This document shows positions 46,966-63,539 of a stretch of DNA of 64,000 nucleotides, piece after piece (the stretch's first letter is position 1; the number at the start of each line of letters is the position of its first letter). The translations under genes were made by a program, and so were the position numbers. Source of the DNA: Ramlibacter algicola (lineage in GTDB: Bacteria > Pseudomonadota > Gammaproteobacteria > Burkholderiales > Burkholderiaceae_C); contig NZ_JAEDAO010000001.1 of assembly GCF_016641735.1 (NCBI RefSeq), forward strand, positions 3,596,001 through 3,660,000. The letters run 5' to 3'. The notes under the pieces were generated by a model. The model saw only the letters and a list, made by a program, of their open reading frames with translations. It did no database searches and had not been told where the DNA came from.

Positions 46966-49485
46966 TCATTCGGCAGCGCGCCGCAAAGTCTCCACCACCG
47001 GCCGCTGCAGCACCTCGCGCAAGCCCCACCAGCCGGCCGCCAGCGCGAGCGCGGCGCCGCAGAGGGCGCCGACGATCGGCACGAACGGGGATGCGGTCCA
47101 CTGGAACTCGAACACGTAGCGGGCGAGCCCCCACCCGACCAGCGAGGCGACGCTGCTGGCGAGGAAGCCGGCGAGCAGGCCGACGCCGGCGAGTTCGGCG
47201 CGCTGCACCTGCCGCAGCAGCGACGCGCGCGCGCCGACGGCACGCATGATCGCGAACTCGCGCGCGCGCTCCTCGCGAGTCGCGGTGACGGCGGCGAACA
47301 GCACGACGACGCCCGCTGCGAGCGTGAAGCCGAACAGGAACTCCACCGCCCGCACCACCTTGTCCAGCACCGACTGCACCTGGTCCAGCGTGCTGGTCAT
47401 GTCGACGTTGGTCACGTTCGGGAAGCGCCGCACCAGCTGGTTGTCGAAGCCGGGCCGCTGCGGCGCGCGGAACGCGGTCATGTACGTGGACGGCACGTCG
47501 GGCAGCTCGCTGACCGGGAACATGACGAAGAAGTTCGCCCGCATCGAGCCCCAGTCCACCTTGCGCAGCGACGTGATGCGCCCCTGCAGCGGCAGGCCGC
47601 CGATGTCGAACTGCAGCTGGTCGCCGAGCTTCAGGCCCAGCGTGGCGGCGATGCCTTCCTCCACGCTCACGGCGCCCTTCTCCTCGGGCACCCACTGGCC
47701 CGCGACGACCTGGTTGTGCGTCGGCTGCGCTGCCGCATGCGACAGGTTGAACTCGCGGTCCACCAGCCGCTTGGCGCGATCCTCGGTGAAATCGTCGGGA
47801 CCGATCGCCTTGCCGTTCACGGCGACCAGCCGCCCGCGAATCATCGGGAACCAGTCGTAGCGCTTGACGCCGCCGGCGCGCAAGGCGTCCTGGAATTCCT
47901 GCGCCTGCTCGGGCATCACGTTGATCACGAAGCGGTTGGGCGCATCGGGCGGCGTCGCGCGCCGCCAGCTGTCCACGAGGTCCGTACGCAGCAACACCAG
48001 CAGCGCCAGCGCGAGCAGGCCGACCGCCAGCGAACTCGCCTGCACCACCGTGTACACCGGCCGCGCGGACACCTGCCGCGTCGCCAGCACGAGCCAGCGC
48101 GGCGCGGTGGCCTCGTTGACGACCGCGCGCAGCAGCTTCACCGCCGCCCAGCTCAACGCCGCGAAGACCAGCACCGCGCCCGCGAAGCCGCCCACGGCGA
48201 TGCCGCCCAGCTTCAGGTCGCTGCTCGCAGCCAGCAAGAGTGCGGCGAAACCCGCCACGCCGACGACCAGCACCAGCGCCGACGCGGGCTTGAGGTTGCC
48301 GACGTCGCGGCGGATCACGCGCAGCGGCGGCACCTGCGCCAGCTGCAGCACCGGCGGCAGGCCGAAGGCGAACAGCAGCGTGAAGCCCATGCCGACACCC
48401 AGCGCCACCGGCCACGGCCCCGGCGGCGGCAACGAGGTCTCGACCAGCCCCGACAGCAGCAGCACGAACACGAAGTGCACCGCGTACCCGGCCACCAGCC
48501 CGAGCACGCTCGCTGCCGCGCCGACGGCGCCGAATTCCACCGTGTACGCCCACGCGATCGTGCGCTGCGGCAGGCCCAGCACGCGCAGCATCGCGCAGTC
48601 GTCCAGGTGCGCGGCCGCGAAGCCGCGCGCGGCCAGGGCGACCGCGACCGCACTGAGCAACGCCGAGAGCAAGGCCACGAGGTTGAGGAACTTCTCGGCC
48701 CGGTCCAGCGTTTGCCGCATCTCCGGCCGCCCGCCTTCCAGCGTTTCGAGCCGCACGCCGCGCACGTCGCCGCGCCCGAGCTGCGCCGCGGACCAGCGCG
48801 TGAAGTCGCGCACGCGGGCGTCGGATCCGGCGACGGCGAAGCGGTACGTCAGCCGGCTCGCCGGTTGCACCAGGCGGGTGCGCGGCAGGTCGCTGGCGGC
48901 GACCAGCACGCGCGGCGAGAACGCCGCGAAGCCGGTGCCGCGATCCGGTTCGAGCAGCACCACGCGCGTCACGCGCAGTTGCGCATCCCCGAGCAGCAGG
49001 GCATCACCGATGCCGATGCCCAGCGCTTCGAGCAGCGAGCGGTCGACCCAGGCTTCGCCCGCAGCGGGGATGGCGCGTGTCGTGGCGCCGGCCGCGCCCG
49101 GGACCGTCGCGACGGTGAGGCTGCCACGCAGCGGGTAGCCCGGTTCGACGGCCTTCAGCGCGACCAGCCGGCTGCCGCCACCCTGCGCATCGGTCGCGCG
49201 GGCCATCGTGGGGAACACGATGTTGGTGGCTGCCTGCAGGCCCAGCTCGCGCGCGCGCTGCACGAAGGCCGGCGGCGTCGGGTTGTCGCTCACGAGCACG
49301 GCGTCGCCGCCGAGCAGCTGGCGCGCATCGCGGGCCAGGCCGCCCTTGAGGCGATCGGCGAAGAAGCCGACGGCGGTCAGCGCCGCGACCGCCAGCGTGA
49401 CGGCCACCAGCAGCAGGCGCAGTTCGCCGGCGCGCAGGTCGCGCCACAGGGTCCGCAGCCCGAGCCGCCAGGGGGTGTCTTGCAT
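46966..49485 (-). CDS. FtsX/MacB-type ABC transporter permease (large, two FtsX domains)
   Basis: An 839-residue integral inner-membrane protein with ten predicted membrane segments grouped as 1 + 3 (about 275-390) + 2 + 1 + 3 (about 715-830). Two FtsX repeats flank large periplasmic domains, as in LolCDE-like or YbbP permeases. Landmarks are LRTLWRDLRAGELRLLLVAVTLAVAALTAVGFFADR at the start and VTATREERAREFAIMRAVGA near the end. No ABC ATPase gene adjoins it. In E. coli the YbbP partner is the ATPase YbbA. Cargo is unknown. Confidence 0.9.
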   Translation of the reverse strand: MQDTPWRLGLRTLWRDLRAGELRLLLVAVTLAVAALTAVGFFADRLKGGLARDARQLLGGDAVLVSDNPTPPAFVQRARELGLQAATNIVFPTMARATDAQGGGSRLVALKAVEPGYPLRGSLTVATVPGAAGATTRAIPAAGEAWVDRSLLEALGIGIGDALLLGDAQLRVTRVVLLEPDRGTGFAAFSPRVLVAASDLPRTRLVQPASRLTYRFAVAGSDARVRDFTRWSAAQLGRGDVRGVRLETLEGGRPEMRQTLDRAEKFLNLVALLSALLSAVAVALAARGFAAAHLDDCAMLRVLGLPQRTIAWAYTVEFGAVGAAASVLGLVAGYAVHFVFVLLLSGLVETSLPPPGPWPVALGVGMGFTLLFAFGLPPVLQLAQVPPLRVIRRDVGNLKPASALVLVVGVAGFAALLLAASSDLKLGGIAVGGFAGAVLVFAALSWAAVKLLRAVVNEATAPRWLVLATRQVSARPVYTVVQASSLAVGLLALALLVLLRTDLVDSWRRATPPDAPNRFVINVMPEQAQEFQDALRAGGVKRYDWFPMIRGRLVAVNGKAIGPDDFTEDRAKRLVDREFNLSHAAAQPTHNQVVAGQWVPEEKGAVSVEEGIAATLGLKLGDQLQFDIGGLPLQGRITSLRKVDWGSMRANFFVMFPVSELPDVPSTYMTAFRAPQRPGFDNQLVRRFPNVTNVDMTSTLDQVQSVLDKVVRAVEFLFGFTLAAGVVVLFAAVTATREERAREFAIMRAVGARASLLRQVQRAELAGVGLLAGFLASSVASLVGWGLARYVFEFQWTASPFVPIVGALCGAALALAAGWWGLREVLQRPVVETLRRAAE

Positions 49486-49997: not shown

Positions 49998-50867
49998 TCA
50001 GCCCGCGCGCACCGGGCCGCGCACGAAGGCCATGCCACGTGGCCGGCGCCGCACTTCACGCAGCAGCTTGAGATAGGTCCGCAGCACCTCGCGCTGCGCC
50101 GGACCCAGCCGGTGACGCCATGCCGCCCACGCCAGTCGCAAGCGCCCGCGCGGCATCCACGGCTTGTCGCGTCCGGTGAAGTGCACGATGCGCACCGGCC
50201 GCCCCTCGCCCGCTGCATGGGGCAGGCGATAGGCGCCGCTGTCCACGTAAGTGTCGACGTGCTCGAAGAACAGGTTGTCCCCCTCGTCCAGGTGCGGACC
50301 CGTGCGCGGCCAGTCGGCGTAGAAGGCGTTGACGAGGTCCTGGTCGCCCAGCGCTGCGCGTCCGACCGCTTTCATCTCGTCCGTCGCACATTCGAGCATC
50401 GCGGCCATTCGCGCCGGCAGCGTCGCGTCGGGCTCGATCACCATCAGCCCGGAGTTGAGCCGGTTCCAGTCGGGATGCAGGCGCTGCCCCGCCGGCACCG
50501 CCGCCATGTGCGGCGCATCGAACAGGTCGTCGACGTCGTCGAGCACGAGCATGTCGCTGTCGAGGTAGACGAGCTTGTCGAAGCCGGCAAGGCCGAACAG
50601 CCGCAGCTTGTCGAACGTGTGGTTCCAGTGCTGGTGGCGCTGCGATCGCTGCGTCCATCCCTGTGGCAGCAATGCATCCGCGGGCAAGGGCAGCACGCGG
50701 CTGACGCCCTCGCACGCGGCCGCTGCCACGCCGGTCGCTTCCGGCAGGTCGGCGGACAGCGCGACCACGAACGGGACCGTGGTCCCCGTGCGCCGAAGGC
50801 TGGCCGCCAGGCAGGCGACGCCCGGCAGGTAGCCGGGCGTGCTCAGGAGCGTGATGTAGGCGTGCAT
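49998..50867 (-). CDS. Glycosyltransferase (GT8/glycogenin-like)
   Basis: A 289-residue GT-A glycosyltransferase. The start MHAYITLLSTPGYLPGVACLAASLRR is the family N-terminus; the DxD metal motif is in KLVYLDSDMLVLDDVDDLF (about 103-120); LNSGLMVIEP and the late HFTGRDKPW motif also fit GT8. It would transfer a sugar from a nucleotide sugar to an acceptor. It lies 105 nt downstream of the PKS on the same strand and so may act on the product of that pathway, but two hairpins lie between them. The start at 50867 was chosen because the conserved N-terminus begins there. Confidence 0.86.
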   Translation of the reverse strand: MHAYITLLSTPGYLPGVACLAASLRRTGTTVPFVVALSADLPEATGVAAAACEGVSRVLPLPADALLPQGWTQRSQRHQHWNHTFDKLRLFGLAGFDKLVYLDSDMLVLDDVDDLFDAPHMAAVPAGQRLHPDWNRLNSGLMVIEPDATLPARMAAMLECATDEMKAVGRAALGDQDLVNAFYADWPRTGPHLDEGDNLFFEHVDTYVDSGAYRLPHAAGEGRPVRIVHFTGRDKPWMPRGRLRLAWAAWRHRLGPAQREVLRTYLKLLREVRRRPRGMAFVRGPVRAG

Positions 50868-50930
50868 GCGTGTCCCGGGGTTGCCGGGCACTCTAGACGC
50901 ACGCCGCGCGCGCATGTGTGTGCGCGCACC

Positions 50931-50972: not shown

Positions 50973-53900
50973 TCAGGACACGGGCGACAGTCCGCGCGGC
51001 GCGCTCGGCCGCAGGGTCGCGTTTGCCTCCGAAGAGTCCGCTGCGTGCGGCAGGCCCGCGTCGAGCCGCGCCAGTTCGCGCCGGAACCCTTCGATGACCT
51101 CGGACACGCCCGGCTCGGCCATCATCGTGAAGTGCGAGCCATGCACGACGGTGACGCGCACCTGGCCCTGCACGTGGTCGTCCCAGCCGAGCTTCGGGCC
51201 GGCGTACAGGTACACGGTTTCGGCGAGCGCCGCGCGCATCAGGACCACGTCGCCTTCATACGGCTGGGGCTGGTAGCGCGCCTGCGCCTCGGTGAAGGTG
51301 CGGAACAGGTGATGCTCGACCAGTTCGGGCGTCAGCGTCTCGCCGCGCGCGATCTTCGCCAGGGCGGCTTCGGATTCGCGCACCATCTCGCGGCCGCGCC
51401 GCCGACGCTTCGGCGTGTCGAGCGCGAACGCCAGCGTCCAGTGCCGCTTGAGCCAGAACTTCTGCCACAGCGGCACGCGGCGGCCGGCGGCGATGGGCGA
51501 CAGGGTGTCGATCATGATGATCGTCTCCACCTGCGCACCGTCGCGCCGCAGCTGCTGCGCCATCTCGTAGGCGATCACGCCGCCGCCGGAGTAGCCCGCG
51601 AGCCGGTAAGGGCCCGTCGGGTCGACGCTGCGGATCGCCTCGATGTACTGCGCCGCCATCGCCTCGATCGACTGCAGCGGCGCGAGCCGGCCGTCCACGC
51701 CCTGCGCCTGCAGGCCGTAGAAGGGCTGGTCAGTGCCGAGCCGGTCGGAGATCACCTTGAAGTTCAGCACGTTGCCGCCGGCCCCGTGCACGCAGAACAG
51801 CGGGCGGCGATCGGCCGAGCCGCGGCAGATCGGCACCAGCGGCGACCAAGAGCGCGGCAGCTGGATGACGTTCGAGGCCGATGCCGGCGCCGGCTGTGCG
51901 GGCGCACCGGGCATCGCGGTGTCGAGGTTGCCGGCCTGCGCGACGAGCGCGGCCAGGCCCGACAGCGTCGCGGCCTGGAACAGCGTGGCCAGCGGCAGGT
52001 CGACGTTCCACTGCTTGCGGATGCGCGCGAACAGGCGCACGGCCGCGAGCGAGTGGCCGCCGAGGACGAAGAAGTCGTCGTCGCGACCGACCTCGTCGAT
52101 GCCCAGCAGCTCGCGCCAGATCTCGGCGATGCCGGCTTCGACCGGGTTGAGCTGCACCGCGGACGGCGCGGGGGCGCGGCTGGACGCGACCGGCGGCAGC
52201 GGCTTCGGGGCCGCGTCTGCCATCGCGCGGCGGATCGCCGACAGCGAGATCGACGACACCACCACGTCGCGCACGCCTTCGGTGAGCACGCGCTCGAACA
52301 GCGCCGGCGCATCCTCGGTGCGCAAGCCGGCGGCGAGCATCGCCTCGGTGAGGCTGGGCTCGCGCCGTGCATGCGCCGCTGCATGGCGAGCCATGGCTTG
52401 CGGGTCGACCCCGCGCAGGCTGAAGCCGTCGAACGTCGCGACGGGCGCGCCTTCCGGCGTGTGCAGCGTCACGTCGAACGAGGCGAAGCGCGACTGGCCC
52501 TGGCCCGGGCTGCGCCCCGCAGGCAAGCCCTTGAGTTCGACGCGGCTGATGCTGCGCAGCGGCAGCGGCGCGACGATGCGGATGCGGTCGACCGACAGCG
52601 GCACGAACAGCGCGTCCTTGCGCTCCGAGGCGTCGAGCAGCTGCAGCCCGAAGGTGGCGGCGATGTCGGTCAGCGCGGGATGCAGCGCGTACGGCTGCAG
52701 GTCGGCGGCGAAGCGCTCGGGAAGCGCCATCTCGGCGATGCCGCGCTTGCCGTCCAGGTGCATGCGCGCGATGTTCTGCCAGCGCGGCCCGAAGTCGACG
52801 CCGCCCTGCGGCAGCTGGCCGGGCACCCAGCCGGTCGCCGGACGGTGCGGATTGGGCGCCAGCGTGCCCTTGTAGCGGGCCACGGTGGCGCGCGCGTGTT
52901 GCAGCCAGGGCTCGGTTCCGTCGACGCGGCTGCGCACGGAGAACTCGTAGTGCTCGCCCGCGCGGCGCAGGTCCACGCGCACCTGGCGGCGCGCGGGACC
53001 CTCGAACACCATTGCTTCCTCGAACGACAGCGAGCGGATCTCGACCCCGCTGCCGGGATGCAGCTGCGCCATCGCGGCGCGCGCGATCTCGATGTACGCG
53101 GTGCCGGGCAGCACGGCGCGGCCGCCCACCATGTGCTCGCGCAGCACCCACAGGTCCTGCGGGTCGTACACGGCTTCGAATGCGGGACCGCCCTCGCCGT
53201 CGGCGCGAGCGCCCAGCAGCGGATGCAGGCCGGACGCGACCGGGGCGAGCGGCGCCTTGCCATACGCGCGCGCGGCCATGCCCTGGTCGCCCCAGATGCC
53301 CCAGTGGATCGCGAGGCCGTCGGGACGCGCCGCGGCGAGCGCATCGAGGTAGGCGTTGGCCGCCACGTAGTCGACCTGGCCGGGCGGACCGAGATAGACG
53401 CTGGTCGACGAGAACACGGCGAACACGTCGAGCTCGCCAGGCGGCAGCAGCTCGTGCAGCACCTGCGCGCCGGCGGCCTTGGGCGCCAGCACCTGGCGCA
53501 CGCCCTCCGACGTCTTGGCGGCGATCGGCGCATCGTGCAGCGTGCCCGCGGCATGGAACACGCCTTGGATCGCGCCCCAGCGCGAACGCACGTCGGCCAC
53601 GACCCTGGCCATCGCATCCCGGTCCGCCACGTCGGCGCTGTAGGTCGCCACCTGCGCGCCGCTGGCTTCGAGCGCGACGAGGCGGCGCACCAGGCGCGCG
53701 GTTTCGTCGGTGCCCTGGCCGGCCGCAGCCCACTGCGCGCGGGCCGGCAGCGCACGGCGGCTCACCAGCGCCAGCCGCGCGCGGTGCTTGCGTGCCAGCC
53801 AGTCGGCGAATTCGAGGGCGATGTCGCCCAGGCCGCCCGTGACCAGGTACACACCCTCGTCACGCACGCTCGCGCGCGCCCCTTCGACCGGGGCGGGCGT

Positions 53901-56900
53901 CTTCGCGAGGCGGGCGACGAAGCGCGAGCCCGCCTGCCAGCCGACCAGGTCGACGCCCGGAGCCGCGACGCACTCGCTGACGATGGCACGGGCCACGGCC
54001 GTGGAGGCGATGTCGGCCGGATCGAGATCGACGAGCACCGCCGACACGCTGGGCACTTCACGCGGGATGACGCGGCACGGACCGATCGCGAGCGCGCCGA
54101 CGGGCTGCGTGACGCGGCGGCCGTCGACCGCCTGCGCACCGGCGGTGACGACGGCCAGGCGGATCGATTGCCGTACGTCCATCACCTGCAGCGTGCGCGC
54201 GAGATGCAGCAGGCTGTCGAAGGCCAGCGCCTGGCCACCCAGGCCGGCGTGCTGCGCGGCGTCGAGCGCCCACAGGTGCACGACGTGGTCCGGCAGGCGG
54301 CCGGCCTGCTCCAGCGCGGAGAACAGGCGCTCGGCGTCGGCGCCGTCGGCGGGATCGATCGTGAAGCTGCCGTCCGCGGCCGAGGCGAACGAAGTGCCGG
54401 CGCGCACCAGCGTCGCCTTGCCGCCTTCTTCCGCGATGCGGCGCAGGACGCCGGCGGACAAGGGCGAGTCGCTGCCGAACACCAGCCACTGCGCGCCCGA
54501 TTGCGCGGTCGCGTGCGGCAACGGTGCCGGACTCCATTGCGGCGTGCCGAACCAGTCGTCCTGCTGCGGCAGGCGGGCGATGCGCGGACCCTGCTGCTTC
54601 GCCTCGGCCTCCACGACGCCCTTGCCGGGCTCGATCCAGTAGCGCTGGTGATCGAACGCGTAGGTCGGCAGCGAGATGCGCCGCGGCTGGCCGCCGCCAC
54701 GCACCACGTCCCAGTCGGGGGTCACGCCGCGTGCCCACAGCGTGCCGACCGACGTGAGCATCAGCGGCAGGTCGCCCGTCGCTTCCTGCGGCTTGCAGGT
54801 CGACGGCAGGATGGTGCGTTGCTGGCCTTGCAGGTTCTGGCGCGCCAGCGCGGACATGCCTTGGCCAGGCCCCACCTCGAGCAGCACCGCGTCGCCCATC
54901 GCGAGCAGCTTGGCCACGCCATCGGCATAGCGGACGGGCTGGCGCAGGTGGCGCACCCAGTACTCGGGGTCGGCCAGCAGCGTGGCGTCGGCCCAGTCGC
55001 CGGTGAGGTTGGAGATGAACGGGACCTGCGGCGGCGACAGCCGCACGCGCGAGATGCCCTGGCGGAAGCGGTCCAGGATGCCGTCGAGCAGGCGCGAGTG
55101 CGCCGCGACGTTGATGTGCAGCCGGCGGCCTTCGCGCCCTTGCGCGGCCAGGCGCTTGCCCAGTTCCTCGATCGAGGCGGTGGCGCCCGATGCGATGCAG
55201 AGGTCGGGCGCGTTGATCACGGCGATGTCGAGCTCCAGGCCTTGCATCGCGGCCTGGAGTTCCGGCTCGTTCATGTCGACCGCGAGCATGCTGCCCGCCG
55301 GCACGGCTTCGAACAGTTGCCCGCGCAGCACGACGATGCGCAGCGCGTCGGCGAGCGACATGACGCCCGCGATGGTCGCGGCGGCGTATTCGCCCGCGCT
55401 GTGGCCGATGACGGCGGCGGGCTGGACGCCCCAGCTTTGCCACAGGCGCGCGATGGCGTACTCGAGCACGAACAGCGCGGGGATGTTGTAGCGCGGCTGC
55501 TCGAGCGCGCGCGCGGCGGTGGCGTCGCCCGGCTCGCGGTCGAACATGACGCTGCGCAGGTCGCCCGGTGCTTCCAGCGGCATCTGCGCGAAGCACTCGT
55601 CGACGGCCTGCCTGAACGCCGGCTGCGAGAGCAGCTCCTTGCCGGCGCCCGGGTAGCTGGCGCCGCCGCCGGGGAACATCATCACGACCTGCGGCGCGGC
55701 GCTGCCGGCCTTGCCGGTGGCGACACGCGGCGACTGGCGCGTCTCGAGCGCGGCAGCCAGGCCCTGCACGTCGCGCGCGACGATCGCGCAGCGGTGCGCG
55801 AAGCCGCGGCGGCCGACCTGCGTGGTGAATGCCGCATCGGCCAGCGAGAAGTCCGCCGGCGCCTGCGCGAGGAAGTCGCTCCACTTGGCCTTCAGCCGCT
55901 CCAGCGAGGTCGGCGTGCGCGCCGACAGCGTGAGCACCTGCCAGGGTTGGGCGGGCGCCTGTGACGCCAGCGTGGGCGGCTCCTCGACGATGACGTGCGC
56001 ATTGGTGCCGCCCACCCCCAGCGAGTTGACGGCCGCACGGCGCGGCGTGCCATTGCGCTTCCATTCACGCGCTTCGTTGACGACGCGGAACGGCGTCTTG
56101 TCGATGTCGAAGCGGCTGTTGGGACGGGTGAAGTTCAGCGTGGCCGGGATCAGGCCATGCCGCATCGCGAGCGACACCTTGATCAGCGACGCGACGCCGG
56201 CAGCCGTGTCCAGGTGGCCGATGTTGGTCTTCAGCGAACCGATGCCGGCAAAGCCGCGCCCGCCTTCGCCGTAGGCCTGCGTCAGCGCAGCCACTTCGAT
56301 GGGGTCGCCGACCGCCGTCCCGGTGCCGTGCGCCTCGACGTAGTTGATGGTCGACGGGTCGACGTTGGCGACCGCCAGCGCCTCGACCGCGGCACGCGCC
56401 TGGCCGTCCACGCTGGGCGCCAGGTAGCCCGCCTTCTGCGAGCCGTCGTTGTTGACGGCCGAGCCGCGGATCACGGCGTAGATGTTGTCGCGGTCGCGCA
56501 CCGCGTCCTCGAGGCGGCGCAGCACGACGACGCCGGTGCCGCTGCCGAACAGCGTGCCGCTGGCGCTCTCGTCGAACGCGCGGCAATGGCCGTCGGGCGC
56601 CAGGATCTCGCCTTCGGCGAAGCGGTAGCCGTGGCGGTGCGGCAGCTCGATGCTGGCCGCGCCGGCCAGCGCCATGTCGCACTCGCCGGCCAGCAGGCTC
56701 TGCGCCGCGACGTGCACCGCGACGAGCGAGGTGGAGCAGGCGGTCTGGACGCCGACGCTGGGGCCCTTGAGGTCCAGCAGGTACGACACGCGGGTGGTGA
56801 GGAAATCCTTGTCGTTGCCGGTGTGCCGCAGCAGGAACAGGCCGACCGACTTCTTCAGCTCCGGATTCGACAGCAGGTTGTACGGCAGGTAGGCCTGCAT

Positions 56901-57290
56901 GCCGCAGCCGCCGAACACGCCGATCGCGCCTTCGAACTTCTCGGGCGGATGGCCCGCGTCCTCCAGCGCTTCCCAGCACGCTTCCAGGAAGTGGCGGTGC
57001 TGCGGGTCCAGGATGGCGGCGTCGCGCTTGGAGAAGCCGAAGAACTCGGCGTCGAACATCTCCATGTCGGGCAGCACGAGGCTGGCGCGCACGTAGTTGG
57101 GGTCGGCGAGCTCCTCCTCGCTGACGCCGGCGGCGCGCAGTTCCTCGTCGGAGAGCCATTGCGTCGCCTCGCGGCCCGCGGCGAGCAGCTTCCACAGCTC
57201 GCCCGGCGTGCGGGCGGCGGGAAAGCGGCCCGCCAGCCCGACGACGGCGATGCAGCCGGGCTCGAGGGTGTCGAGGATGGGATCGTTCAT
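50973..57290 (-). CDS. Type I polyketide synthase, KS-AT-KR-DH-ACP-TE
   Basis: A 2105-residue single-module PKS with its own release domain. KS is 10-~440 (Cys185 in TACSTSL, His321, His359). AT is ~530-820 (Ser631 in GHSAGE; specificity loop VAAH at 728-731). KR is ~905-1340, with structural half, NADPH loop TGGLGD 1151-1156, and Tyr1308/Asn1312 of the active site. DH is ~1355-1630 with H-x3-G-x4-P starting at His1386 and Asp1542 in HPALTD. ACP is ~1715-1785 with Ser1747 in GGHSL. TE is ~1825-2075 with Ser1901 (GYSGG), Asp1928 and His2053. There is no ER or MT domain. DH placed after KR is an unusual order. It follows the NRPS by 10 nt and should extend its PCP-bound product by one two-carbon unit to an enoyl chain and release it. 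Confidence 0.94.
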   Translation of the reverse strand: MNDPILDTLEPGCIAVVGLAGRFPAARTPGELWKLLAAGREATQWLSDEELRAAGVSEEELADPNYVRASLVLPDMEMFDAEFFGFSKRDAAILDPQHRHFLEACWEALEDAGHPPEKFEGAIGVFGGCGMQAYLPYNLLSNPELKKSVGLFLLRHTGNDKDFLTTRVSYLLDLKGPSVGVQTACSTSLVAVHVAAQSLLAGECDMALAGAASIELPHRHGYRFAEGEILAPDGHCRAFDESASGTLFGSGTGVVVLRRLEDAVRDRDNIYAVIRGSAVNNDGSQKAGYLAPSVDGQARAAVEALAVANVDPSTINYVEAHGTGTAVGDPIEVAALTQAYGEGGRGFAGIGSLKTNIGHLDTAAGVASLIKVSLAMRHGLIPATLNFTRPNSRFDIDKTPFRVVNEAREWKRNGTPRRAAVNSLGVGGTNAHVIVEEPPTLASQAPAQPWQVLTLSARTPTSLERLKAKWSDFLAQAPADFSLADAAFTTQVGRRGFAHRCAIVARDVQGLAAALETRQSPRVATGKAGSAAPQVVMMFPGGGASYPGAGKELLSQPAFRQAVDECFAQMPLEAPGDLRSVMFDREPGDATAARALEQPRYNIPALFVLEYAIARLWQSWGVQPAAVIGHSAGEYAAATIAGVMSLADALRIVVLRGQLFEAVPAGSMLAVDMNEPELQAAMQGLELDIAVINAPDLCIASGATASIEELGKRLAAQGREGRRLHINVAAHSRLLDGILDRFRQGISRVRLSPPQVPFISNLTGDWADATLLADPEYWVRHLRQPVRYADGVAKLLAMGDAVLLEVGPGQGMSALARQNLQGQQRTILPSTCKPQEATGDLPLMLTSVGTLWARGVTPDWDVVRGGGQPRRISLPTYAFDHQRYWIEPGKGVVEAEAKQQGPRIARLPQQDDWFGTPQWSPAPLPHATAQSGAQWLVFGSDSPLSAGVLRRIAEEGGKATLVRAGTSFASAADGSFTIDPADGADAERLFSALEQAGRLPDHVVHLWALDAAQHAGLGGQALAFDSLLHLARTLQVMDVRQSIRLAVVTAGAQAVDGRRVTQPVGALAIGPCRVIPREVPSVSAVLVDLDPADIASTAVARAIVSECVAAPGVDLVGWQAGSRFVARLAKTPAPVEGARASVRDEGVYLVTGGLGDIALEFADWLARKHRARLALVSRRALPARAQWAAAGQGTDETARLVRRLVALEASGAQVATYSADVADRDAMARVVADVRSRWGAIQGVFHAAGTLHDAPIAAKTSEGVRQVLAPKAAGAQVLHELLPPGELDVFAVFSSTSVYLGPPGQVDYVAANAYLDALAAARPDGLAIHWGIWGDQGMAARAYGKAPLAPVASGLHPLLGARADGEGGPAFEAVYDPQDLWVLREHMVGGRAVLPGTAYIEIARAAMAQLHPGSGVEIRSLSFEEAMVFEGPARRQVRVDLRRAGEHYEFSVRSRVDGTEPWLQHARATVARYKGTLAPNPHRPATGWVPGQLPQGGVDFGPRWQNIARMHLDGKRGIAEMALPERFAADLQPYALHPALTDIAATFGLQLLDASERKDALFVPLSVDRIRIVAPLPLRSISRVELKGLPAGRSPGQGQSRFASFDVTLHTPEGAPVATFDGFSLRGVDPQAMARHAAAHARREPSLTEAMLAAGLRTEDAPALFERVLTEGVRDVVVSSISLSAIRRAMADAAPKPLPPVASSRAPAPSAVQLNPVEAGIAEIWRELLGIDEVGRDDDFFVLGGHSLAAVRLFARIRKQWNVDLPLATLFQAATLSGLAALVAQAGNLDTAMPGAPAQPAPASASNVIQLPRSWSPLVPICRGSADRRPLFCVHGAGGNVLNFKVISDRLGTDQPFYGLQAQGVDGRLAPLQSIEAMAAQYIEAIRSVDPTGPYRLAGYSGGGVIAYEMAQQLRRDGAQVETIIMIDTLSPIAAGRRVPLWQKFWLKRHWTLAFALDTPKRRRRGREMVRESEAALAKIARGETLTPELVEHHLFRTFTEAQARYQPQPYEGDVVLMRAALAETVYLYAGPKLGWDDHVQGQVRVTVVHGSHFTMMAEPGVSEVIEGFRRELARLDAGLPHAADSSEANATLRPSAPRGLSPVS

Positions 57291-57300
57291 GGGTGATGCA

Positions 57301-60300
57301 TCAGGCCGTCGGGGTGGCCAGGTGGCGGTTGCGCAGCATGCGGCGCGCCTGGGCGCGGCTCTGGCCTTGCGAGACGGCGGTCGATTGGGCGCCGCCGGAC
57401 AGGTGCGCGGCGAGCGCGCGGATCGTCGGCAGGCGGAACATGTCGGTGATGGGCACTTCCTGCCCCGTGGCCTCGCGCAGGCGACGCTGCACCTGCACCA
57501 CGAGCAGCGAGTGGCCGCCGAGGTCGAAGAAGTTCTCGGTCGTGCCGACCGCTTCCAGGCCCAGCACGTCCTGCCAGATGCCCGCGATGGTGGTCTCCAT
57601 CGCGTTCTCCGGCGCTATTGCGCTGCGCGGCGCGGCGGCGACGCGCGGGTCGGGCAGCTGCTTGCGGTCGACCTTGCCGTTGGGCGTCATCGGCAGTGCG
57701 GGCAGCACCATCACCACCGCCGGCACCATGATCTCGGGCAGCGCCCGCGCCACCGCTTCGCGCAGCGCCGTGCCTTGCACGTGCGTGCCCGGCTTGCCGG
57801 TCACGTAGCCGGCCAGGAATTTCTGGCCGCTGGCGTCGTCACGCGCCACCACCACCGCCTGCTTCACGCCGTCCTGGCGCAGCAGCACGCTCTCGATCTC
57901 GCCCAGTTCGATGCGATGGCCGCGCAGCTTGACCTGGTGGTCGATGCGGCCCAGGAAGTCGATCGAGCCGTCGGGCAGGCGGCGCACCAGGTCGCCGGTG
58001 CGGTACCAGCGCGCGCCGTTCGCGTCTTGCACGAAGCGCTCGGCGTTCAGCTCGGGCCGGTGCAGGTAGCCGTCGGTCACGCCGTCGCCGCCGATGAACA
58101 GCTCGCCCGGCACGAGCGCGGGGCATTCGGCGCCCCAGGGGGTACGGATCGACAGTTGCGTGTTGGCGATCGGTTCGCCCAGCGGCACGCGGCCGTCGAG
58201 CTTCTCGAGATTGGCCGTCGTCGACCACACCGTGGTCTCGGTCGGGCCGTACATGTTCAGCAGCGCACCGGGCACCAGCGAGCGCAACTGCGTTGCCATC
58301 TCCAGCGGCAACGCCTCGCCACCGACCATCATCGCGCGCAGCCTGGACAGCGCGGCGCGGCCCGGCGCGTCGGCCAGCAGCATCGCCGCCATCGAGGGCG
58401 TGCACTGCAGGTGCGTCACGCCGTGCTGCAGCGCGTTCTCCGCGACGGACACGCGGCGGGTGCTGGCGGCGGGCGCGCGGCTGGCTTCCATCAAAGCCTT
58501 CAGTTGCGGCAGGCTGGCCAGCACGGTGTCGGGCGCGATGCCGAAGTCGACCAGGCAGGCGATCTCGTCGACGCCGGCGTCTTGCACCTTGCGCACCATG
58601 TCCAGGCAGCGCTGCGGCGTGCCGATCAGCGCGCTGCTGCCGTAGTAGCGCTGGAACGCGTGGTCCAGCAGCGCGTCGGTTTCCGCGGGCGACAGCGGCG
58701 CGGCGTCCATGATCTCCTGCGGCGTGCGGCCGTCGGCGGCCGCGCGTTGCACGAAGGTCGGGAAGGTCCAGGCGGCCTTGCGCACCAGGTCCATCGCGCC
58801 GCGAAGGTAGTTCTTCATCGGCTGGCGCGCCGTCTCGCGCGCCCGGTCCTCGTCGTCGTCGACGTAGGTGTGCAGCATCAGCGTGACGTGGCCCTCGCCG
58901 GGGTGGCCGGCTGCCTTCCACGCCGCGCGGTACAGGCGCAGCTTCTCGGCGACGTCGTCCACCGTCTGGCCCAGCAGGTGCGTCAGCAAGCGGCAGCCCA
59001 TGGTGCCGGCCTGCTCGAAGGTCTTCGGGTTGCCCGCCGCGGTGATCCACACCGGGATGTCCTGCTGCACCGGCCGCGGCAGCGTGCGCGTGGGCACCTG
59101 GTCGCCTTTGGGGCCGGGGAACGGCACCGCCTCGCCCTTCCACAGGCGCCGCACGGTGTCGATGTGCTCGACCATCACCTGCTGGCGGTTGGCGAAGTTC
59201 TGCGGCGCGAGCACGAAGTCGTTCGGCTGCCAGCCGGACGCGAAGGAGATGCCGACGCGGCCATTGGACAGGTTGTCGACGAACGCCCAGTCCTCGGCCA
59301 CGCGCACCGGGTGGTGCAGCGGGATCACGCAGCTGCCCGCGCGGATCTGCACGCGCGTCGTCATCGTCGCCAGCGCGGCGGCGGTGACGACGGGGTTGGG
59401 ATACAGCCCGCCGAAGGCGTGGAAGTGGCGCTCGGGCGTCCACACGGCCGAGAAGCCTTCGCGGTCGGCGAACTTCGCGCCTTCCAGCAGCAGCCGGTAG
59501 CTGTCGCGCGTGTCGCTCGACTCGTCGCTGGCGAAGTAGAACAGGCTGAACTCGGGGGCCTTCACCGGCGCCGCGGCGGTGTCGGAGTGCAGCACCACCG
59601 TCACGCCACGCGCGAGCGTCCAGTACAGCTCCAGCACCGAGATGTCGAACGACAGGCTGGTGACGGCCAACCACTTGGAGCCTTCTTCGCGCGGGACGCG
59701 TTCGTCCATGCCCGCGAAGAAGTTCATCACGTTGCGCTGCGTGACCACGACGCCCTTGGGCTTGCCGGTGGAGCCCGAGGTGTAGATCACGTAGGCCGGA
59801 CGGCGCGCATCGGCTTCGGGCAGCGCTTGCGGCGCGACGGCCTCAGGCTGGTCGATGCGCAGCATGCGGCCGGCGTCGACGTCGATCGCGGTGGCGGACG
59901 GGGCGCTGACCAGCACCACGGGCGCATTGGCGTCTTCGACCATGAACTGCAGCCGGTCCTTCGGGTACTCGGGGTCGAGCGGCAGGTAGGCGGCGCCGGC
60001 CTTCATCGTCGCCAGCACGGCGACCAGCAGCGCCGGAGTGCGCGGCAGGCACAGGCCGACGATGTCGCCAGCGCGCACGCCGCGGGCGACCAGGCGGTTT
60101 GCGAGCGCCGTGGATTGCTCCTCCAGCTGGGCGTAGGTGAGCGATTCGGGACCGGTGGTGACCGCGACCTGCTCGGGCGTGCGCGCGGCCTGCGCCGCGA
60201 TCAGCGTGTGCACGCAGGCTTGCTTGTCGAACGCCGACGCGGCCCGCGACAGGCGCGCCACGCTGTCCTGCTCGGCAGACGGCAGCAGCGGCAGCTCGCC

Positions 60301-61830
60301 GATGGGCCCCTGCCCTTGCGCGAACGCGTGCAGCCAGGCTTGCAGCTGGGCGGCCATCGCGACGCCTGCGTCGGGCGCGAACACGGCGTCGTCGAGCAGC
60401 AGTTCCAGGTCGCCGCGTGCATCGACGGTGAGCAGCGCCTCGCAGCCCGCCGGCAGCGATTGCGGCGCCAGCGCCAGCGCGACCTTGCGCAGCGCCGCCA
60501 GCGGCACGGAGCGCTCGCCCAGGCGCGACGGCAGGTCGCGCGTCAGCGGGCCGGCGCTGCGCGCGTGCGACAGCGTGCGCTCCAGGACGCCAGTGAATTG
60601 CAGCGTCGCCAGCGTCGGTGGCACGCTGGCCGTCATCGGCACCCAGGCGTCCAGCCAGGGCTCGAGGCCATGGGCCTGCTCCTGCAGCGACGCGTCGGTG
60701 TAGAGAACGCTGGTGCGCTCCTGGCCCGTGAGCATCGAGAGCCACGCATGGAAAGCGGCCAGCACCACCGGTGCCGGCGGTGCCACGCCGAGGTGGTGCT
60801 TCTGCACGCCGGCAACGCCCGCTTCGTTGCGGCGCGGGTACGGCAGTTCGACCGGCGCCAGCGCATGCAGCACGTCGGTCCAGTGCGACTCGCCCTTGGC
60901 GATGGAGTCGAGGCGATCCTGCAGGCGGCTGCGTGCAGCCTCCGGAACGCCGAGCACGGCGCCTGGCTGCACGCGCGGTGCGCCACCCTCCAGGGTCGTG
61001 CAGCCGCCGAGCACCAGCTCGCCGCCCAGCGCGGCGACGCGAAGGGTGTCGCCCTGCACGCCGAGCACCGTGCCGGGCGCGGCGCTGGCCAAGCCGTCGC
61101 GCACTTCGGCGCTGCGCACGAGCACGAGCTCGTCGCCCGCCAGCACCTTGGCGCGGCCGAGCGGGTTGGCGTACTGGCCGAAGTCGAGCGCGCGCACGAG
61201 CGCGGCGAGTTCCTGGGCGGGCCGCGTGAAGTCCAGTGTCGCCAGCAGCGCGGGGCGCTTGTGGCGGCCGAAGTAGGTGCGCTCGCCGCTTTGCGCCGCC
61301 AGCGCGAGGCGGTCATGCGCGATGTCGTCGGCGATCTGCGTGAAGGCCGCGAGGCCGGCTTCGTAGCACTTGGCGTTCAGGCTCAGCGCCGTTTCGGCGG
61401 GCGACACCTCGAACGAACCCTGCCGCACGATGCGGCCGGCATCGGCACGCGCGGTCATCTCGTGCCACGTGACGCCGTGCACGCCCTCGCCGGCCATCAG
61501 CGCCCAGCAGGTGGCGTTGAGGCCCGCGTAGCGAGGCAGCAGCGCATCGTGGAAGTTGATCGCGAGCTGGCCCGCGCGCTCCAGCACCGCCTGCGGCAGC
61601 ATGCGCAGGTTGGCGACGCTGAACAGGTAGTCGAAGCGGAGGCCATCGAGCTGGGCACCCCACTCGCCTTCCATCGCGATCGCGCGCACGTCCTGCGCGC
61701 GCGCCCAGTCGAGATTCGCGCTGCTGCCCGACACCACGGCGGCCACCGAGTGGCCGGCACGGCGCCACGCTTCGGCGCATTGCACCAGCAGGCTCCCATC
61801 CCCCACGAACACAGCCGTTGTCGTCGTCAT
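57301..61830 (-). CDS. NRPS: formyltransferase - half C domain - A domain with inserted luciferase-like monooxygenase - PCP
   Basis: A 1509-residue loading-type module. Residues 1-~300 match formyltransferases (Fmt fold), with the Asn92/His94 of NFHDALLPRYAG and Asp130 of the ADAG motif as likely catalytic residues. About 320-540 resembles only the C-terminal half of a condensation domain; no HHxxxDG is present. The adenylation domain starts at about 545, with A3 YTSGSTGKPKG at 683-693 and A4 around SFDIS at 727-731, breaks at about 755, and resumes at about 1125 with YGPTETT (1194-1200) and NGK (1384-1386). The gap of about 365 residues is a luciferase-like flavin monooxygenase domain of the natural-product LLM type (TIGR04020-like). 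PCP Ser1441 is in GGHSL. The frame is continuous, so this is not a frameshift artefact. The specificity code reads DILQMGMVWK, close to glycine. Confidence 0.92.
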   Translation of the reverse strand: MTTTTAVFVGDGSLLVQCAEAWRRAGHSVAAVVSGSSANLDWARAQDVRAIAMEGEWGAQLDGLRFDYLFSVANLRMLPQAVLERAGQLAINFHDALLPRYAGLNATCWALMAGEGVHGVTWHEMTARADAGRIVRQGSFEVSPAETALSLNAKCYEAGLAAFTQIADDIAHDRLALAAQSGERTYFGRHKRPALLATLDFTRPAQELAALVRALDFGQYANPLGRAKVLAGDELVLVRSAEVRDGLASAAPGTVLGVQGDTLRVAALGGELVLGGCTTLEGGAPRVQPGAVLGVPEAARSRLQDRLDSIAKGESHWTDVLHALAPVELPYPRRNEAGVAGVQKHHLGVAPPAPVVLAAFHAWLSMLTGQERTSVLYTDASLQEQAHGLEPWLDAWVPMTASVPPTLATLQFTGVLERTLSHARSAGPLTRDLPSRLGERSVPLAALRKVALALAPQSLPAGCEALLTVDARGDLELLLDDAVFAPDAGVAMAAQLQAWLHAFAQGQGPIGELPLLPSAEQDSVARLSRAASAFDKQACVHTLIAAQAARTPEQVAVTTGPESLTYAQLEEQSTALANRLVARGVRAGDIVGLCLPRTPALLVAVLATMKAGAAYLPLDPEYPKDRLQFMVEDANAPVVLVSAPSATAIDVDAGRMLRIDQPEAVAPQALPEADARRPAYVIYTSGSTGKPKGVVVTQRNVMNFFAGMDERVPREEGSKWLAVTSLSFDISVLELYWTLARGVTVVLHSDTAAAPVKAPEFSLFYFASDESSDTRDSYRLLLEGAKFADREGFSAVWTPERHFHAFGGLYPNPVVTAAALATMTTRVQIRAGSCVIPLHHPVRVAEDWAFVDNLSNGRVGISFASGWQPNDFVLAPQNFANRQQVMVEHIDTVRRLWKGEAVPFPGPKGDQVPTRTLPRPVQQDIPVWITAAGNPKTFEQAGTMGCRLLTHLLGQTVDDVAEKLRLYRAAWKAAGHPGEGHVTLMLHTYVDDDEDRARETARQPMKNYLRGAMDLVRKAAWTFPTFVQRAAADGRTPQEIMDAAPLSPAETDALLDHAFQRYYGSSALIGTPQRCLDMVRKVQDAGVDEIACLVDFGIAPDTVLASLPQLKALMEASRAPAASTRRVSVAENALQHGVTHLQCTPSMAAMLLADAPGRAALSRLRAMMVGGEALPLEMATQLRSLVPGALLNMYGPTETTVWSTTANLEKLDGRVPLGEPIANTQLSIRTPWGAECPALVPGELFIGGDGVTDGYLHRPELNAERFVQDANGARWYRTGDLVRRLPDGSIDFLGRIDHQVKLRGHRIELGEIESVLLRQDGVKQAVVVARDDASGQKFLAGYVTGKPGTHVQGTALREAVARALPEIMVPAVVMVLPALPMTPNGKVDRKQLPDPRVAAAPRSAIAPENAMETTIAGIWQDVLGLEAVGTTENFFDLGGHSLLVVQVQRRLREATGQEVPITDMFRLPTIRALAAHLSGGAQSTAVSQGQSRAQARRMLRNRHLATPTA

Positions 61831-61851: not shown

Positions 61852-62610
61852 TTACGGATCAACGATGCTAGAAGCCTGGGCTTCCGCGCAGTGACGTTGT
61901 TTACAAATTGCAATTCCTCGGTGCTCTTCCGCGAAGCGGCGCGTGGCCAGCCCGTCGAGCTGGACCAGGCGCACGTCGCCGAGTTCGTCGCTCGCGAGCG
62001 CCAGCGCATGGCCTTCGGGCGCGGGCAGGCGCAACACGACGGTGCCGACGGGCAGCAGCGTGTTGCCGTCGATGACCTCGAAGCAGTCGTCGCCCGCGAA
62101 CGGCCGCAGCCCGATGCGCGGGTTCGACGCCGACAGGCCGGTGCCCTGCGCCTTCCAGTACGCCTCCAGCGCGGTCCATTGCAGGAACAGGTCCACCGGT
62201 TCGGCGTCGGGCAGCGCGACCACGAAGGGGTCGAGCACCGAGGCCTGCACCGACGCATTCACGGTTTCCACGTCCACACCCAGGCGCGTGACGCGGCCCA
62301 CCGCGCAAGCGACGAGGCCGCGGCTGCGCGTGAGGCTGAAGGCGGGCGCCTCTGGCGCATCGAGCAGCACGGGGCGGCCGTGGGCGGCGGTGCCGAAACG
62401 CAACTCGCTCGGGTCCGCGCCGAGCGCGGTGCCGAGCGCCATGCGGCGCAGGGCGTGAGCGAGGATGAAGGCGTTGCGGTCGACGTCGAAGCGGAACGCA
62501 TCGGCGCGTTCACGCTCGCCGGCATCCAGCAGCGCGCGCAGGGTCTCGCACGCGGAGGCGCCGACGCCGTCCGGCCGTGCCGTCCACACCTCGATCGCCC
62601 CAACCTGCAT
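61852..62610 (-). CDS. Sfp-type 4'-phosphopantetheinyl transferase
   Basis: A 252-residue Sfp-class PPTase that would load phosphopantetheine on the PCP and ACP of the neighbouring NRPS and PKS. The metal motif GVDVE is at about 110-114 and the second motif reads WTALEAYWKAQG, where the usual KEA lysine is replaced by Leu. It ends 21 nt before the NRPS start, so the three genes are one operon. The ATG at 62610 has a GGGAG ribosome-binding site at proper distance; the ATG at 62628 is the alternative. Presence of a private PPTase supports the operon being a self-contained biosynthetic unit. Confidence 0.9.
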   Translation of the reverse strand: MQVGAIEVWTARPDGVGASACETLRALLDAGERERADAFRFDVDRNAFILAHALRRMALGTALGADPSELRFGTAAHGRPVLLDAPEAPAFSLTRSRGLVACAVGRVTRLGVDVETVNASVQASVLDPFVVALPDAEPVDLFLQWTALEAYWKAQGTGLSASNPRIGLRPFAGDDCFEVIDGNTLLPVGTVVLRLPAPEGHALALASDELGDVRLVQLDGLATRRFAEEHRGIAICKQRHCAEAQASSIVDP

Positions 62611-62735
62611 CGGACTCCCTGGTTGCATTTCCTGACGCGGCGATGGTGCCGGTCAGGCAAGCCCTTGTGCGCTTCAGTGGCCCGGACGGACTACGGCTCC
62701 CGCGCGCGTGCGTTGCGTCGAGCAAACTCGTGCGC

Positions 62736-63539
62736 ATGTCGAAGGCCGAGCCACCGGACCGCGGCGCCCCACGGATGAGTCGCGCGGCGATTCCCATCCT
62801 GTCGTACCACCAGGTCGACCGGCCGCCGCCGCGTGGCACGCCGGTGCGGTCGCTCGTGTTGCCGCCATGGCGGCTTGCAGCGCAGCTGCAGGCGTTGCGC
62901 GCCCTCGGCTGGCAGGGCCTGTCGATGCGCGAGCTGCAACCGTACCTGCGCGGCGAGCGCCACGGCAAGGTCGTCGGGATCACTTTCGACGATGGTTACC
63001 GCAACAACCTGCGGCACGCGCTGCCGGTGCTGCAACGGCTGGGCTTCAGCGCGACGGTGTTCATGGTCAGCGGCCAGCTCGGCGGCACGAACGCGTGGGA
63101 CCACGCGCTGGGCGTGCCGCCATCACCGCTGATGACCGCGGCGGAACTGCGCGAATGGATCGACGCCGGCATGGAGGTGGGCTCGCACACGCGCAACCAC
63201 GTGAACCTCGCGCAGTGCGACGACACGACCGCGCGCGAGGAGATCACCGGTTCGCGGCTCGACCTCGAGGACGTGCTGGGCGTCCCGGTGCGCAGCTTCT
63301 GCTACCCCTACGGCGGCCACCGCGCCGAGCACGCCGAGATGGTCCGCGAAGCCGGCTACACCAGCGCCACCACGATCGTCAGCGCGCGCACGCAGGAGGG
63401 CGATGACATGTTCCGGTTGCCGCGCGTGTCCGTGGAACTCGACGACCCGATCGCGCGGACCGTGCTGCACGTCGCCACGCCCTGGCTGGAGTGGCGTTCC
63501 CGCCGCCGTGGTGCGGCCGCCTTGCCGGCGGCCTGTTGA
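62736..63539 (+). CDS. NodB-type polysaccharide deacetylase
   Basis: A 267-residue carbohydrate esterase 4 domain protein. The NodB motifs are clear: TFDDGYRNN (metal/base Asp pair), the SHTRNH (H-x3-H) zinc ligands, and a C-terminal CYPYGGHRAEHAEMVREAGY segment. It would remove N- or O-acetyl groups from a polysaccharide or another amide. No signal peptide is evident, so it may be cytosolic. The start is uncertain: 62736 (MSKAEPP) or 62775 (MSRAAIPILSYH), and an even longer frame overlaps the PPTase promoter region. It is divergent from the PPTase. Confidence 0.87.
   Translation: MSKAEPPDRGAPRMSRAAIPILSYHQVDRPPPRGTPVRSLVLPPWRLAAQLQALRALGWQGLSMRELQPYLRGERHGKVVGITFDDGYRNNLRHALPVLQRLGFSATVFMVSGQLGGTNAWDHALGVPPSPLMTAAELREWIDAGMEVGSHTRNHVNLAQCDDTTAREEITGSRLDLEDVLGVPVRSFCYPYGGHRAEHAEMVREAGYTSATTIVSARTQEGDDMFRLPRVSVELDDPIARTVLHVATPWLEWRSRRRGAAALPAAC

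Follow-up and report, generated by a model that had tools for sequence, protein, structure and literature searches.

The window analysed here is a stretch of 64,000 nucleotides of the Ramlibacter algicola genome (contig NZ_JAEDAO010000001.1, positions 3,596,001 to 3,660,000). It contains a small gene cluster in which a non-ribosomal peptide synthetase (NRPS) gene lies between the genes for a type I polyketide synthase (PKS) and a phosphopantetheinyl transferase (PPTase). The host had been recognized as a beta-proteobacterium in an initial annotation made from the DNA alone, and this agrees with its genus, which also includes Ramlibacter sp. Leaf400 and Caenimonas soli. The NRPS open reading frame (57301–61830, minus strand, 1509 amino acids) begins with an ATG codon and has a coding-like GC content of 0.73, 0.50 and 0.93 at the three codon positions; an overlapping plus-strand frame of 1893 amino acids is presumably a by-product of the 70% GC content. 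The features of the cluster are as follows.

46966..49485, minus strand: FtsX-type permease, downstream of the cluster (FtsX, E = 4.3e-17)
50973..57290, minus strand: type I PKS, 2105 amino acids, KS-AT-KR-DH-ACP-TE (Pfam), 10 bases from the NRPS gene
57301..61830, minus strand: predicted NRPS initiation module of 1509 amino acids, FT - C-lobe - A(A4-LLM-A5) - PCP (Pfam, NCBIfam, motifs and hhalign)
57400..57591, minus strand: peptidyl carrier domain (PCP), residues 1414–1477, with Ser1441 (PP-binding, E = 6.4e-17)
57673..58452, minus strand: second part of the adenylation (A) domain, residues ~1127–1386, A5–A10 (TIGR01733, AMP-binding_C)
58492..59550, minus strand: luciferase-like monooxygenase (LLM) insert, residues 761–1113 (TIGR04020, 512.8 bits; PuwE 6ket, E = 2.6e-114)
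59572..60198, minus strand: first part of the A domain, residues 545–753, motifs A3 and A4 (Pfam AMP-binding; motifs)
60208..60939, minus strand: C-terminal lobe of a condensation domain, residues ~298–541, without HHxxxDG (hhalign, 99.0%)
60982..61830, minus strand: formyltransferase (FT) domain, residues 1 to ~283, with N92, H94 and D130 (Formyl_trans_N, E = 1.3e-20 on the slice; motifs)
61852..62610, minus strand: Sfp/HetI-like PPTase, 21 bases upstream of the NRPS gene, start taken from our own gene calling (ACPS, AASDHPPT_N, HetI and AusB models)
62577..63539, plus strand: divergent polysaccharide deacetylase, start codon uncertain (Polysacc_deac_1, E ~3e-28)

The initial annotation had described a single 1509-residue frame combining a formyltransferase, an A domain, an LLM and a PCP, and every one of these domains was recovered by Pfam and NCBIfam: Formyl_trans_N (52–163), Formyl_trans_C (198–274, borderline), AMP-binding (545–753), TIGR04020 (761–1113), TIGR01733 (1127–1327), AMP-binding_C (1311–1386) and PP-binding (1414–1477). 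The carrier serine is kept in all 71 aligned relatives. Among the best 120 of 7840 passing homologues (8000 candidates scored; the window protein included), all but one (119) have the four Pfam domains together (FT, AMP-binding, LLM and carrier), and chance or an assembly artefact can therefore be ruled out as the origin of the architecture. At the level of sequence, the domain assignments are firm.

The region between the FT and A domains had been proposed to be half of a condensation domain. Pfam called no condensation domain in the protein, and a pattern search found no HHxxxDG motif in it. In a profile–profile comparison (hhalign) of 37 family sequences (residues 285–545) with a template built from 30 distinct condensation domains of the fetched loci, residues ~298–541 matched columns 176–458 of 459 with a probability of 99.0%, and the columns before 176, which include the HHxxxDG lobe, had no counterpart. 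When single sequences are used, the signal of the window protein is weak (best domain i-E 0.0071), and that of some relatives is stronger (2.6e-13 at locus L008). The proposal thus holds in the sense that this region appears by profile similarity to be a remnant consisting of the C-lobe only, which may perhaps serve as a spacer or a docking surface.

The FT domain is nearest, among solved structures, to ArnA (E = 2e-20), a sugar-amine formyltransferase, with LgrA next at 5e-5. Its top NCBIfam model is likewise that of ArnA, at 105 bits and far under the equivalog cut-off of 777, and Formyl_trans_C is barely over its cut-off on the FT slice alone (21.6 versus 21.1 bits). Asn, His and Asp, which we take to be the catalytic residues of ArnA, are present as judged by alignment: N92, H94 and D130 line up with the corresponding ArnA motifs and occur in 63, 66 and 67, respectively, of 71 aligned relatives, six of which are fronted by a complete condensation domain instead. 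Formylation by this domain is likely. The resemblance to ArnA raises the question of whether the FT acts on an amino sugar and not on carrier-bound glycine, the fusion merely joining two polysaccharide enzymes; the annotation of Paracoccus marcusii gives the FT an overlapping gene of its own, and the same seems to hold for Deinococcus (a frameshift is possible). However, 119 of the 120 homologues listed combine the FT with the NRPS domains in a single chain, and in initiation modules the F domain formylates an amino acid that is already carrier-bound, according to the accessible part of PMC8949500. Formylation of a sugar is thus highly improbable.

The A domain is interrupted between motifs A4 and A5, as initially annotated: FDIS (A4) is at residue 728 and YGPTE (A5) at 1194, and the LLM lies in between. 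The insert passes the curated cut-off of TIGR04020 (MupA/Atu3671 FMN-dependent LLM; 512.8 versus 244.45 bits), and PuwE (6ket) is its closest solved structure by sequence. The ten-position code of the A domain is DILQMGMVWK, and the pattern D-I-L-Q-x-G-x-[IV]-W-K is present in 72 of 72 sequences (the window protein included; seven loci are present twice, from two collections). Since we take codes like DILQLGLIWK to specify glycine, the code is read as glycine-like, and the domain likely loads glycine. In the myxothiazol and melithiazol systems, a monooxygenase inserted into the A domain between a4 and a5 hydroxylates the alpha-carbon of the glycyl residue. The product then collapses to an amide and a two-carbon glyoxyl thioester, and this remnant is hydrolysed by the TE; solanimycin B retains alpha-hydroxyglycine (all from the accessible sections of PMC10204066). 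Nested domains in unusual NRPSs are generally found at a8/a9, as far as the available text of PMC8949500 describes them. By analogy, it can fairly be inferred that the LLM hydroxylates the alpha-carbon of the loaded glycine.

A different target, the nitrogen, would give the hydroxamate N-formyl-N-hydroxyglycine, and the product would be a metal chelator. Formyl-hydroxamates serve as siderophore ligands, and this reading had been prompted by the name of the LLM model, in which Atu3671 is presumably an Agrobacterium protein; nothing on Atu3671 was found in the open-licence literature. We consider it very unlikely, because the described domains of this kind act on carbon (in the parts of PMC8739492 and PMC10204066 available to us) and because neither the Pfam scans of the window neighbours nor the annotation at those relatives' loci that carry one named a gene for iron uptake.

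The PKS is composed of KS (14–387), AT (538–836), KR (1146–1334), DH (1356–1633), ACP (1721–1783) and TE (1829–2069) domains as located by Pfam. In an alignment of 50 sequences, one per locus and from our own gene calls, the KS cysteine and both histidines, the AT serine and histidine, the KR serine and tyrosine, the DH histidine and aspartate, and the ACP serine are identical in all 50, the TE serine in 49, and the DH motif glycine in 46. The PKS gene is located no more than two genes from the NRPS gene in 36 of 39 loci. The PPTase matches (ACPS, AASDHPPT_N, HetI and AusB) are all under their cut-offs. The C-terminal end of the PKS varies: Pfam identifies KS-AT-KR-DH-ACP-C-A-PCP-TE in Aliiroseovarius, genome G508 apparently has the same additional C-A-PCP ahead of the TE (from length and motifs), and the Deinococcus PKS gives no TE match and closes instead with a condensation-superfamily domain whose motif is altered. 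Release therefore differs between members, and a constant front end with a varying exit would fit a conserved acyl cap whose fate is not always the same.

The surroundings of these genes contain several other features. The FtsX-type permease was found at 9 of 17 loci compared, and its position may reflect plain synteny. A GT8-like frame between the PKS and FtsX genes (49998–50915, minus strand) was dropped as a component, as tblastn gave a match in none of 16 other loci. A formate-dehydrogenase-like operon precedes the cluster beyond the right end of the window (L091) and at 8 of 17 loci (by eye, from protein starts); this too may be plain synteny, though a link between formate and the formyltransferase is tempting. 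In genome G153, genes for an amino acid--[acyl-carrier-protein] ligase (PRK07080, 403.9 bits, over its cut-off) and an acyl-CoA dehydrogenase are located directly upstream of the NRPS gene (L085:10145-12207, minus strand), with a divergent AcpS-like PPTase. The same arrangement of gene families is seen in genomes G191 and G196 of the genus, the profile scan being that of G153 alone.

We propose, with a probability of roughly 0.55 and from sequence comparisons, that the 1509-residue protein serves a small NRPS-PKS line as its loading module, making an N-formyl-(alpha-hydroxy)glycine starter for one PKS extension, and that the product becomes an exopolysaccharide substituent in those relatives where the cluster is linked to exopolysaccharide genes. 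The A domain would load glycine, the FT would formylate the loaded glycine from formyl-tetrahydrofolate, and the LLM would hydroxylate its alpha-carbon. The N-formyl-(alpha-hydroxy)glycyl starter would then be accepted by the PKS ketosynthase and undergo one malonyl extension, ketoreduction and dehydration. A single, non-iterative pass would yield a 4-formamido-but-2-enoyl chain, with a hydroxyl group at C4 provided that the LLM acts and this group is retained, and the TE would release the C5 unit, e.g. as 4-formamido-4-hydroxybut-2-enoate, or hand it over to an acceptor. The placement of KR before DH differs from the canonical PKS module order, and given this order, iteration by the PKS is possible.

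The same enzymes could be used in another way: hydroxylation of N-formylglycyl-S-PCP by the LLM would be followed by loss of formamide, in the manner of the terminal amide in myxothiazol, and the resulting glyoxylyl thioester would be extended by the PKS to a 4-oxo-crotonate-like acid, the formyl group serving only to make the nitrogen a leaving group. The insertion site and the glycine-like code match those of MtaG/MelG, in which such a collapse gives a glyoxyl thioester, but the remnant is hydrolysed there by the TE, and in solanimycin B the hydroxyglycine is kept (MtaG/MelG and solanimycin as described in the accessible text of PMC10204066). It would also be costly to formylate glycine and then discard the group. 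We regard this route as improbable and retain the formylated starter as the preferred reading.

In searches with strict E-value limits, the NRPS was matched in 20 of 60 genomes of the genus and in 4 of 150 genomes of the family to which the window belongs, the source genome being included in both sets. Of 398 genomes sampled across the phylum, 16 gave a match, and 14 of these were near full length (own genome included). Among 120 genomes of a further family, 43 contained a match (38 near full length, four partial, and one in two fragments), and condensation domains at E <= 1e-30 were present in 18 of the 120 genomes of the same draw. This family is taken to be the Rhodobacteraceae because its members cluster with Cribrihabitans, Ruegeria and Parasedimentitalea in the tree. 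The NRPS thus represents a widespread family and is not peculiar to one strain or bacterium. The initial annotation had considered the combination of domains uncharacterized in a loading-type protein of a beta-proteobacterium. No characterized case was found and, within the open-licence literature, no description of the architecture, of its function or of its exopolysaccharide link, which is weak evidence of novelty given that most subscription papers were outside that scope; any impression that the combination is special to this bacterium has to be given up.

The exopolysaccharide context of many relatives had escaped the initial annotation. The genomic context of relatives was analysed using PF02397 within 25 kb as the marker for exopolysaccharide-type sugar transferases. 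In a first sample, consisting of 36 of 38 genomes (G495 and G536 were left out because of partial matches), the marker was present at 13 of 27 testable loci versus 0.96 expected from gene number and genome size, six loci being untestable because contig ends lie within 25 kb; these counts, like the other co-location counts and P values given here, ignore relatedness. Linked loci made up 8 of 13 outside the genus and 5 of 14 inside it. Three further loci (G189, G194 and G356) are near PF02397 but outside the strict set; when they are included, the count is 16 of 30. A first control with condensation domains of the same 38 genomes comprised some nine loci once the fragmented G174 is set aside; it was too limited in size and failed to separate the family from other NRPS loci, as the NRPS loci of G536 (~8.5 kb) and G320 (~11 kb) were by eye also near PF02397.

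A second sample was drawn from the Rhodobacteraceae-like family. Among the PF02397 matches listed, the marker was found within 25 kb of 26 of 44 family loci, four of which are partial, and of 3 of 25 control NRPS loci (Fisher P = 1.3e-4). Several controls are on numbered contigs; if these are short, the control count would be too low. For near-full-length members only, the number was 24 of 40 (P = 2.1e-4, among the same matches), and the remaining 18 of all 44 family loci are not within 25 kb of a listed match, contig ends not being considered. The two G687 fragments were left out of this sample, three control condensation domains beside family members were dropped, and control domains within 40 kb of each other were merged.

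According to annotation, the NRPS and PKS genes lie among genes for glycosyltransferases, sugar transferases, flippases or polysaccharide export in plasmid loci of Aminobacter, Paracoccus, Shinella, Parasedimentitalea, Ruegeria and Deinococcus. The Aliiroseovarius locus adjoins a nitrous-oxide reductase operon and has, at a greater distance, just an exosortase and a VPLPA-CTERM protein, and in the Streptomyces record, where the match stops short of the FT part, no polysaccharide-type neighbour is named in the annotation. Two further records carry no annotation. Recurrent neighbours in 39 clustered loci are glycosyltransferases, a Wzy-like protein, a flippase, sugar transferases and WecG/TagA. 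The order PKS, glycosyltransferase 2, NRPS is seen in 14 of the 39; no glycosyltransferase separates the two genes in the genus loci compared. An SGNH-like protein (DUF4886, under its cut-off; GHS and DxxH conserved) is encoded in 20 of the 39 loci and no more than two genes downstream in 15. It was rejected as a universal requirement, being found in 3 of 26 genomes searched and in none of the 19 of the genus. An 841-aa protein (L037:18360-20885, plus strand) resembles the SGNH-like protein in having a GHSL motif at its N terminus, and Pfam gives no match to it at E <= 0.01; its family is present in nine clustered loci. In Paracoccus liaowanqingii, a second small NRPS (C-A-PCP-TE; L148:12002-16057, plus strand) is located beside a WecB/TagA glycosyltransferase.

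The window copy itself does not show this linkage, its nearest PF02397 gene being 187 kb away, and 9 of 14 testable genus loci, the window included, have no PF02397 within 25 kb. A polysaccharide deacetylase adjoins the cluster in seven of these nine unlinked loci, and the divergent deacetylase gene is the sole carbohydrate-related neighbour noted in the window. In a tree of the A-LLM part (65 sequences), the linked label needs 3 changes, compared with a mean of 13.0 in shuffles, with group labels set partly by eye and 15 of the 65 sequences in no group. The window falls in a starred clade made up of six genus sequences, all unlinked, within a starred 18-row set that includes seven linked ones. 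Together with the PF02397 counts, the tree indicates that the link is common in the family and missing from the branch of the window. The polysaccharide role is a statistical association in relatives, and its transfer to the organism of the window is not safe; the polysaccharide step may not apply there, given the 187-kb distance and the 9 of 14 unlinked genus loci. In linked alpha-proteobacterial relatives, a substituent of exopolysaccharide is the likeliest destination of the product.

The product could instead be a free secreted small molecule, e.g. a 5-formamido-butenolide formed by TE cyclization and used as a signal or an antibiotic, the exopolysaccharide neighbours being incidental. The TE serine conserved in 49 of 50 sequences, the clade of the window without a nearby PF02397 gene and the amino-acid module added in one lineage would be consistent with such a product. 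Co-location with PF02397, however, was found in two samples and exceeded that of other NRPS loci of the same genomes, and presence in 43 of 120 genomes of one family, versus condensation domains (E <= 1e-30) in 18 of 120, looks like a lifestyle trait. A free product is therefore unlikely overall. We tentatively suggest, at somewhat less than even odds, that the NRPS-PKS product is a non-sugar acyl building block for exopolysaccharide, i.e. that formyl-hydroxyglycine-primed C5 units are placed on a secreted polysaccharide and do not form a free natural product.

If the exopolysaccharide link is true, assembly-line enzymes would have a structural role at the cell surface, the annotation of such clusters would change, and a so far unexplained gene set in many bacteria would find an explanation. 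The system is small, with three genes. On this reading it would rank with the most common NRPS-type genes of Rhodobacteraceae-like bacteria, having been overlooked because genome mining would take it for an orphan antibiotic or siderophore cluster. According to the accessible part of PMC8949500, formylating NRPS domains are very scarce, and this 2022 review knows of just three peptides that an F domain formylates; near-full-length members are present here in 38 of 120 genomes of one bacterial family.

Several known systems resemble parts of this protein. Conglobatin and oxazolomycin are oxazole polyketides begun by FT-A(Gly) loading modules with N-formylglycine as the polyketide starter; to our knowledge, those modules have no LLM. 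No cyclodehydratase was called by Pfam among the scanned window neighbours. The F domains of LgrA (linear gramicidin), anabaenopeptilide and kolossin are, as in the window protein, N-terminal and followed by A and PCP domains, and LgrA chains such as 6mfz were matched. The comparison with LgrA made in the initial annotation holds for the presence in one protein of A, PCP and an FT with Asn, His and Asp, but not for the FT itself, which is closer to ArnA; in addition, we know of no LLM or condensation C-lobe in LgrA. PuwE, the nearest solved LLM by sequence (6ket), is comparable at the domain level only. Module 4 of SolF (solanimycin) is likewise a glycine module with a flavin monooxygenase, and its alpha-hydroxyglycine is kept in solanimycin B; unlike the present protein, it is an internal module with the monooxygenase inserted between a8 and a9, and the accessible text of PMC10204066 mentions no FT. 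MtaG and MelG (myxothiazol and melithiazol), compared by description only, share with the window protein an A domain split at A4/A5 by a flavin monooxygenase, which in MtaG and MelG acts on a glycyl residue (same source); the code DILQMGMVWK of the window protein resembles glycine codes and may point to the same substrate. In MtaG and MelG the module terminates the chain as an amide, whereas the window protein has an N-terminal FT, a C-lobe in place of an intact condensation domain and a PKS gene following it. The MtaG precedent stands for the insertion point, and its terminal-amide chemistry is not directly transferable, because the window protein appears to be a first module whose starter feeds a PKS.
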